Below, piece by piece: positions 12,063 through 50,617 of a stretch of 64,000 nucleotides of DNA. The notes under the pieces were generated by a model. The model made no database searches, was not told the DNA's origin, and was given only the letters and a program-made list of their open reading frames with translations. Source of the DNA: an uncultured Elioraea sp. (GTDB lineage Bacteria; Pseudomonadota; Alphaproteobacteria; Acetobacterales; Acetobacteraceae); NCBI GenBank assembly GCA_938010425.1, contig CALLUO010000005.1, positions 62,001-126,000 on the forward strand, read 5' to 3'. Both the position numbers and the translations under genes were made by a program. Position 1 is the stretch's first letter. Each line of letters opens with the position of its first letter.

Positions 12063-12698
12063 TTAGTCGCTGGTCCGGCCCTCGGCCGCCGGCGGGGCAG
12101 CGAGGGAGAGAGTGGGCAGCTCGCCCTCCGTTTCCAGCACGAGGCCCGCGGTGGCGAAGGCCGATTTCGCCCTCGCTGCACCACCCAACAGGGTCAAGGC
12201 AAGGCGCGCCTCACCGGCGCTAAGGCCGCGCGGCTCGACTCGCGAAACGATCGCTATGGCGGCAAGGCGACGCCGAAGCTCCGCCCACTCGCCGGGCGAG
12301 GCGAAGCGCGCCCTCACCTCCACGGTTTCGCCAGGGCCAAGCTCGCGCGCGAGCAGGGCGCGCACGGCCTCGGGGCGAAACAGCACGGCGAGAGTCGCAC
12401 GGTACCGTCGCGCCGTGATCTCTTCCTCGACAACCTCGAAGCCCTCGATCAGGCGGTCGAGCTCGCGCTCGGGCAATCGCCGCAGACGTGCCGCCTCCGG
12501 CGCCTCGCGGGCCAGGAAACGCTCCCAGGCCAGCTGACGGCCGGTCGCCTGCGCTGCCGTCCTCGCCGCCACCGCGTCCGCTGCCGTCTCGTCGACCACG
12601 ATGCCGCCGATGCGGAAGCCCCACTCGCCCGCGCGTGCGACCCCGCACCCGACCGCGAGGGCGAGAACCGCCCCGATCAACCTTGCTCTTGACGACAC
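12063..12698 (-). CDS. DUF2066 family exported protein
   Basis: A 211-residue protein with an N-terminal signal-like stretch ([18 protein letters not shown]) followed by a domain resembling DUF2066: [20 protein letters not shown] and [16 protein letters not shown] near the start, then the [19 protein letters not shown] segment. DUF2066 proteins are envelope proteins of unknown role, often beside CDP-alcohol transferase and purM genes, as here. The frame stays open to 13106 antisense to purM, but GTG at 12698 places the signal peptide at the N terminus and has AAGGGG close upstream. It is the first gene of the operon running to ppx and is divergent from purM. Confidence 0.75.
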
Positions 12699-12758
12699 GC
12701 CCCTTCCCCGACACGACCCAGCGAACGTGCATGCTGCCTTAGCCGATCGGGGGAGACC

Positions 12759-13817
12759 ATCGCCAGAGCCACCTATCGCGACGCCGGCGTCGACATCGAG
12801 GCGGGCGAGGCGCTCGTCGAGCGGATCAAGCCGCTTGCGCGCGCGACCGACCGGCCGGGCACGCTCGGCGCCCTGGGTGGGTTCGGCGCGCTGTTCGACG
12901 TGCGCGCGGCGGGCTTCACCGACCCCGTGCTGGTCGCCACCACAGACGGGGTGGGGACGAAGCTCAAGATCGCGATCGAGACCGGCCGCCACCATGGCGT
13001 GGGGATCGACCTCGTCGCGATGTGCGTCAACGACCTGGTGGTGCAGGGGGCCGAGCCTCTGTTTTTCCTCGACTATTTCGCCACCGCCCGGCTTTGCGTT
13101 GACCATGCGGCCGAGGTGATTGCCGGCATGGCCGAGGGATGCCGCATCGCTGGCTGCGCTCTCGTGGGCGGGGAGACGGCGGAAATGCCGGGACTGTACG
13201 CCGCCGGAGATTACGACCTCGCCGGCTTCGCCGTGGGCGCGGCCGAACGCGGCACTTTGCTTCCTAGGCCTGACATCGCACCCGGCGACGTGGTGCTTGG
13301 GCTTGCCTCATCGGGCGTGCACGCGAACGGCTTTTCGCTCGTCCGCCGCATCGTTTCTGAGGCGGGGCTTGGCTGGTCCTCGGCCTGTTCGTGGGACGGC
13401 GAGAGGACGGTGGGGGAGGTGCTGCTCGAGCCGACGCGCATCTACGTTGCACCGTTGCTGGCCGCTCATCGCGAAGGGCTAATCAAGGCGGCTGCCCACA
13501 TCACAGGCGGCGGTCTGCCGGGAAACTTGCCGCGAGTCCTGCCAGAAGGGGTTGTCGCCGCAATCAACGCCGCCTCCTGGCCGGTGCCGCCGGTGTTCGC
13601 CTGGCTCGCGCGTACGGGCGGGGTCACGGCTCAGGAGATGCTGCGCGTGTTCAACTGCGGCATCGGCATGGCGGTGGTGGTCGGCCCCGCCGATGCTGAG
13701 CGCGCGACCTCTATCCTCTCCGCACAGGGCGAAAAGGTCTTCCGCATCGGCACACTCGTCGCTGGGGAGGGGCCAGCACGGGTCGAGGTGTCGGTCCCGG
13801 CCGGCTGGCTCACATGA
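12759..13817 (+). CDS. purM: Phosphoribosylformylglycinamidine cyclo-ligase (start codon abnormal)
   Basis: PurM closes the imidazole ring in purine synthesis (FGAM + ATP to AIR). The family sequence is continuous from [20 protein letters not shown] through [51 protein letters not shown] and [15 protein letters not shown] to the usual C terminus. The oddity is the start. In this frame there is no ATG, GTG or TTG between the stop at 12690-12692 and a GTG at 12900 that would remove about 45 conserved residues. The best boundary is ATC at 12759 with GGGGGAG just upstream, or a one-base error in the G run at 12749-12753 joining a GTG frame from 12727. It overlaps purN by ATGA. Confidence 0.9.
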
Positions 13818-14452
13818 AGGCACGGGTCGCGGTGCTGATCTCCGGCCGCGGCAGCAACCTGCGCGCCCTCATCGAGGCCTCGGCCGACCCTGCGTTCCCG
13901 GCTGAGATCGCGCTCGTTGTGTCCAACGAACCAAAGGCGGCCGGGCTCGCCATCGCGCGGGCAGCCGAGGTGCCGACGGTGGTGATCGACCACCGCCCGT
14001 TCCGCGGCGACCGTGCGGCGCACGAGGCGGCGATCCAGGCCGCTCTGCACGGCGCTAGGGTGGACCTCGTCTGCCTCGCCGGATGGATGCGCCTGCTCAC
14101 CCCTTATCTCGTGGGCCTGTGGCGGGGGCGGATGCTGAACATCCACCCGAGTCTTCTGCCGGCCTTCCCTGGGCTTGAGACGCATGCCCGCGCTCTCGCT
14201 GCCGGCGTTAAGCTGCACGGCTGCACCGTCCATCTCGTCACCGAAGCGATGGATGACGGGCCGATCCTTGCCCAAGCGGCTGTGCCCGTTCTGCCGGAGG
14301 ATACGGTGGAAAGCCTTGCGGCACGGGTTTTGGCGGCCGAACATCGCCTCTATCCGACCGCGCTTGCTGCCCATCTCGGTGTGACCGCCGGCCCGGTATC
14401 GGCTGCCACGGTGTTGTTCAACCCCTTGCCCCTGGTGCCGCACTCCGCTTAA
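13814..14452 (+). CDS. purN: Phosphoribosylglycinamide formyltransferase
   Basis: PurN uses 10-formyltetrahydrofolate to formylate GAR, step three of purine synthesis. The 212-residue protein has the N-terminal nucleotide loop [16 protein letters not shown], the [13 protein letters not shown] segment, the catalytic block [22 protein letters not shown] (N, H) and [21 protein letters not shown] with the conserved aspartate. The ATG at 13814 overlaps the purM stop (ATGA), so translation is probably coupled to purM. The length is typical. Confidence 0.95.

Positions 14453-45546: not shown

Positions 45547-50617
<5,071 letters not shown>

Follow-up and report, generated by a model that had tools for sequence, protein, structure and literature searches.

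To our knowledge, bacterial genes with conserved non-canonical start codons are few. The classic weak-start gene is infC, which encodes IF3 and is autoregulated by IF3. Known infC starts are AUU, AUC and AUA. In E. coli the codon is ATT, in Streptomyces it is ATC, and non-canonical starts are repressed by IF3 (PMC5472188, available in part), which disfavours weak third-base pairs (PMC10158994, available in part). The GTC start of sigR is well conserved in Streptomyces, and according to the same report (PMC5472188) there is no evidence of it in other actinobacterial genera. In S. aureus, reporters with non-canonical starts yielded about 10% of the AUG output in poor medium, and the ccpN start responded to the medium (PMC13009471, available in part).

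The purM locus and its reading frame

The window, the whole 64,000-nucleotide stretch of DNA analysed here, comes from an uncultured Elioraea sp. and hosts a purM gene. The gene has no ATG, GTG or TTG in frame between the stop at 12690-12692 and a GTG at 12900, as the sequence-only reading of this DNA had claimed and as frame reading confirmed. The features of the locus are as follows.

12759..13817, + strand: purM coding sequence with ATC as its start, 352 codons and a TGA; supported by the TIGR00878 match and by third-position substitutions
12759..12761, + strand: putative ATC start codon, the sole near-cognate codon in frame ahead of the conserved N-terminus; the homologous codon is ATC in two and ATA in three other species of the genus
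12749..12755, + strand: putative Shine-Dalgarno (SD) sequence GGGGGAG; GGGGG ends 5 nt before ATC, at the position of GGAGG in relatives
12739..12750, + strand: TTAGCCGATCGG, just 5' of the SD; small variants occur in many relatives, ATG-starting ones included
13814..14452, + strand: purN, identified by motif; its start codon and the purM stop overlap (ATGA)
12900..12902, + strand: GTG, first canonical start in the purM frame; rejected, as 47 codons of conserved coding sequence precede it
12727..12729, + strand: GTG that would be in the purM frame only if one G were added; rejected, as it is not conserved

The frame is bounded by TGA codons at 12690-12692 and 13815-13817. The sole in-frame CTGs before GTG 12900, at 12873 and 12891, both lie within the conserved coding part, and ATC 12759, which directly follows GGGGGAGACC, is indeed the sole near-cognate boundary 5' of the conserved PurM N-terminus. 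The run of five Gs falls at 12749-12753 as described, and the arithmetic by which one added G would put GTG 12727 in the purM frame is correct. A start at GTG 12900 had been said to cost about 45 conserved residues, and 47 codons were counted. Started at ATC, the protein matches the NCBIfam purM profile TIGR00878 with 428.8 bits (cut-off 236.35) over profile positions 2-330 of 332, and the gene is PurM, phosphoribosylformylglycinamidine cyclo-ligase; started at GTG 12900, the protein covers profile positions 49-330 only. Translation of purN is probably coupled to that of purM, given the overlap of the purN ATG with the purM stop. The region of TTAGCCGATCGG is perhaps a promoter -10 region; a sigma-70 promoter scan and an Rfam search around the purM start returned nothing. 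In the window's family, many purM genes (many of L112-L132 and L223-L282) carry the element TAGCCGATCGG, or a close variant of it, 5' of the SD (window 12739-12750), with canonical and non-canonical starts alike.

A window-wide test for the first canonical start inside BLAST alignments is confounded by conserved upstream DNA, and mismatches have been counted by codon position instead. In the 47 codons from ATC to GTG 12900, mismatches at the first, second and third position number 1/0/11 against the genus species G001 and 3/0/5 against the genus species G004; the changed codons are synonymous in 12/12 and 6/8 cases, respectively. When the stretch 5' of ATC is included, the third-position share of mismatches for purM is 0.92 against G001 and 0.50 against G004. 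In 18 ORFs of the window, 20 or more codons align ahead of the first canonical start, and the third-position share reaches 0.5 in two of them, purM and a gene fragment (0.69) apparently derived from a broken gene. The pattern indicates that the purM reading frame is under protein-level selection from ATC onward. Protein-like substitutions and the lack of a canonical start together imply that PurM begins at or before the conserved N-terminus, for which ATC is the sole candidate. Elsewhere in the window, at 45547-46861 on the minus strand, EQRHVKPFIDLHLLLGLARARH and its neighbours are pieces that overlap one another in different frames; they look like remnants of one gene, and are probably a pseudogene.

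Start codons of purM in the genus and in Alphaproteobacteria

Seven species of the genus have been compared at the purM start codon. ATC preceded by five Gs, as in the window, is found in two other species (G001 and G004; loci L002 and L003), where GGGGGAGACC-ATC is identical. ATA occupies the homologous codon, behind CCGATCGGAGGCCGCC (GGAGG) and with no G run, in G002, G003 and G006 (L004, L005 and L008). G005 has ATG and is the single exception in the genus. As expected of a start of the infC kind, the homologous codon is a near-cognate one in six of the seven species. The GTG at 12727 has no equivalent in G004, which reads GGGCATG, and is listed as absent for L002; in G001, the frame is closed by a stop just 12 codons 5' of the ATC. 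Beside its own ATG-started purM, G005 has a second purM contig (L031; G005:C99), in which GGGGGAGACC-ATC, with the same G run, is again identical and one base differs upstream. The PurM fragment encoded there, 126 residues long, is 100% identical to that of the window, and the contig probably stems from a strain near-identical to the window's species, binned into G005.

Relatives with a normal start codon in the same frame had been named beforehand as evidence against an AUC start. They exist, since G005 and many other relatives have ATG, but six of the seven species of the genus are not among them. The lack of ATG at purM in these six argues for a labile trait, and not for an error.

For the class, purM loci were collected from family and class matches and from the start regions of 120 further genomes, 282 in total, or 281 once L031 is set aside. 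Almost all carry an alphaproteobacterial name or code; the title of L073 says no more than Proteobacteria, and the tree places this locus with the window's family. The fetched start regions are mostly the best-scoring among the matches listed, rather than a random sample of the class, and close relatives are not independent. By a strict criterion, a locus lacks a canonical start when no ATG, GTG or TTG occurs from the upstream stop (or from 35 codons back) to 6 nt before a conserved Tyr. Such loci are 54 of 281. All but one (53/54) hold ATC, ATA, ATT or CTG, behind a strong SD in 45 cases and with a weak SD or none in the other 8 of the 53. Start calls over the 281 loci are 169 ATG, 26 ATC, 24 CTG, 21 ATA, 17 ATT, 11 GTG and 2 TTG, with 11 loci uncalled. 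Non-canonical calls amount to 88/281, 52 strict and 36 based on context, the latter because a canonical codon is also in frame within 105 nt 5' of the anchor. Seven loci (L018, L030, L057, L059, L110, L168 and L243) were set by hand to no call, and three loci with a variant anchor were included by hand. Calls at L202 (strict) and L203 (context) are weak, as their positions are unusually far upstream, and in genus g16 an ATC immediately 5' of the called CTG could be the start instead.

Non-canonical purM starts occur in 47 of 151 genus groups, where one group pools the loci that lack a genus, and some genera may be counted under both a name and a code. Among named members are Azospirillum (4/4 loci) and Kiloniella, Terasakiella and Rhodovibrio, with one locus each. 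Canonical calls have been made for named loci of Rhizobiaceae (15), Phyllobacteriaceae (5), Methylobacteriaceae (5), Paracoccaceae (9), Roseobacteraceae (4) and Caulobacteraceae (3). The four Azospirillum strains, represented by complete replicons, all read GAGGATACC-ATC and, with the next codon, GCGAGGATACC-ATC-AGC. In the laboratory strain A. brasilense Sp7, the ATC of purM is on NZ_CP012915.1 and would give the N-terminus (M)STQSNN. The codon may switch inside one genus, between ATC and ATA in that of the window and between ATA and ATT in g299; three loci of g70 (L112, L128 and L131) are context-called ATC. Limited as it was to one sequence, the sequence-only reading could not reveal the recurrence of weak purM starts in a sizeable share of the class.

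A strong SD at a fitting distance, as expected of the infC kind, is present in the window as GGGGG at 5 nt, a form found in 3 of the 88 non-canonical loci; GGAGG or GAGG lies exactly 5 nt 5' of the start in 70 of them. In the set of 55 strict loci, L031 included, near-cognate codons exceed expectation behind a strong SD (ATC 16 observed against 2.6 expected, ATA 10 against 1.5, ATT 8 against 2.0, CTG 12 against 4.0). ACC and AGC are likewise enriched there, which probably reflects second codons. The median predicted SD pairing is -7.8 kcal/mol for the non-canonical group (47 genus groups) and -5.8 for ATG (101 groups), a difference that is partly circular, since the calls themselves drew on SD strength; for strict loci alone the median is -7.4 kcal/mol.

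A FastTree phylogeny was built from 161 PurM proteins, with a start call for 154 tips, 39 of which are non-canonical. The tree requires at least 15 changes between canonical and non-canonical states (mean 35, minimum 27 in 500 shuffles) and, among the 39 non-canonical tips alone, at least eight changes of codon (mean 21, minimum 17 in shuffles). The purM start state thus appears on the tree as inherited but labile. With equal costs, parsimony places mostly changes from ATG to non-canonical codons, i.e. repeated gains, and leaves the root unsettled; deep ancestry is therefore not demonstrated. Strict avoidance of AUG, also considered, is unsupported in view of these changes between states and of the eight among non-canonical tips.

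Control genes and infC

Under the same strict criterion, purN lacks a canonical start in 0/133 loci, against 22/133 for purM in those same loci. In relatives, the counts are 0/21 for purD, 0/24 for purH and 0/23 for purF; some of these control loci are weak off-family matches. Control counts are unchanged between slightly looser limits and limits identical to those of purM. Control loci with no recognised anchor were left out (purN 28/161, purD 9/30, purH 6/30, purF 7/30, infC 8/30). Outside the class, purM is without a canonical start in 1/70 loci, with a doubtful anchor; the 70, 30 of which come from few families, include L477, apparently mis-anchored. In these out-of-class loci (L427-L496), the nearest canonical codon within 60 nt of the purM N-terminus is GTG in 35/70, ATG in 26 and TTG in 6. 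Judging from nearest codons, which are not called starts, purM may favour weaker starts more widely than in Alphaproteobacteria.

The positive control is infC, which has ATC behind GGAGG in 7/7 species of the genus, the window's own genome (L285) among them. ATA or CTG were read by eye at the start of infC in other relatives (infC loci L284-L308); CTG, seen in L290, L292 and L293, may be unusual for this gene. No canonical start at all is found in 8/22 anchored infC loci, and the other 14 have ATG, GTG or TTG in frame nearby; in 3/7 loci of the genus a TTG lies further 5' in frame. Given the ATC of infC throughout the genus, this cell is expected to be capable of AUC initiation. The non-canonical codons of purM are here the ones also used by infC.

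The probable AUC start of purM and known systems

AUC 12759 is very probably the physiological start of purM. The rare AUC start, the first option of the sequence-only reading, is supported by the ATC and ATA codons of relatives and by the coding signal. The best reading is that the start is weak and initiation-limited. The initiator fMet-tRNA would read AUC through a weak third-base pair, and the strong SD would compensate for the weak codon. As at infC, initiation at purM would be slow and exposed to IF3 proof-reading, which would hold PurM and the coupled PurN at low levels that depend on the condition of the initiation machinery. An initiator-tRNA pattern found no match in the genome, which is 88.6% complete, a result uninformative either way. 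The weak start, being kept, looks like a device holding PurM output down. A regulatory role is conceivable, at somewhat less than an even chance; set-point tuning and true regulation cannot be separated by sequence alone, and both the control of purM by IF3 and the purpose of the weak start are what we infer.

Chances are about equal that the non-canonical start is real and merely sets a level, weak codons drifting in as little PurM is needed and a stronger SD compensating. The approximately 15 changes of state, the stronger SD of the non-canonical group and the sufficiency of ATG in other lineages fit such drift, which does not readily explain the zero cases in purN, purD, purH and purF, nor the fixed 5-nt spacing (70/88). 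A bolder and rather unlikely hypothesis is that in a large part of Alphaproteobacteria start-codon discrimination acts on purMN as a second target in addition to infC, so that purine synthesis would track the initiation machinery via AUC, AUA, AUU or CUG. Were this true, the state of the machinery would comprise the level of IF3 and the formylated initiator tRNA, hence 10-formyl-tetrahydrofolate, also consumed by PurN; a translational link of purine and one-carbon supply to protein synthesis would have arisen many times.

Explanations that bear on the position or the reality of the start fare worse. The AUC could be reached by re-initiation after a tiny upstream ORF (ATG 12731 CTG CCT TAG; window 12731-12742), whose three codons end just 5' of the purM SD and which is present in L001, L002 and L003. 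The genus's ATA species lack the ORF, no copy of it was seen in the leaders of Azospirillum or Kiloniella, and this route is very improbable. Still less credible is that PurM starts at GTG 12900, where the frame has its first canonical codon, and lacks its N-terminal 47 residues: changes 5' of the GTG are mostly synonymous, and the alignments of the ATC-started protein with TIGR00878 and with the three best-matching solved PurM chains begin at its residue 4 or 5. Hardly any weight attaches to a sequencing or assembly error, either a G missing from 12749-12753 that hides GTG 12727 or an ATG miscalled as ATC, for though the assembly is of MAG quality (88.6% complete, 101 contigs) and one extra G opens the frame, two other species and a further contig have the identical run and ATC, the run is missing from the ATA species, GTG 12727 is not conserved, and ATC is also found in complete Azospirillum replicons. 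The homopolymer error, the second option of the sequence-only reading, is refuted by the ATC and five Gs shared by two other species, and a frameshift from GTG 12727 is rejected, as the GTG is absent in G004 and run and ATC are common to relatives.

A start of purM at AUC would add to the known cases a core metabolic enzyme and dozens of genus groups, among them that of the tractable Azospirillum brasilense. It poses a testable puzzle, namely why the purM step is weak-started, and purN, purD, purH and purF are not. Gene finders limited to ATG, GTG and TTG would probably shorten purM or assign it a wrong start; the Azospirillum records examined are unannotated there. No report of a non-canonical purM start was found among the titles and abstract openings listed by searches of an open-access library, a scope that mostly excludes subscription papers.

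Like purM, infC has a conserved non-canonical start behind an SD, and is itself ATC-started in this genus. In contrast to infC, purM does not encode an initiation factor, and an autoregulatory loop is therefore missing; dependence on IF3 is presumed for purM. Streptomyces sigR, repressed by IF3, is a further non-infC gene with a non-canonical start, but encodes a regulator and not a metabolic enzyme, starts at GTC, and has been proven by mutation (PMC5472188, in the part available). In Listeria, ATG to ATA or ATT mutants of rsbW similarly lower the output of one gene by weakening its start codon, but arose under laboratory selection and are not conserved (PMC13068326, available in part). The S. 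aureus genes ccpN (AUA), cvfC1 (AUU) and citZ (AUA) resemble purM in having a non-canonical start and a strong SD, and two of these starts are conserved, according to the available part of the report (PMC13009471). They are other genes in another phylum, whereas the purM case spans many genera of one class. The kind, a conserved non-canonical start, is known; purM as the gene, and the breadth of its distribution, appear to be new.
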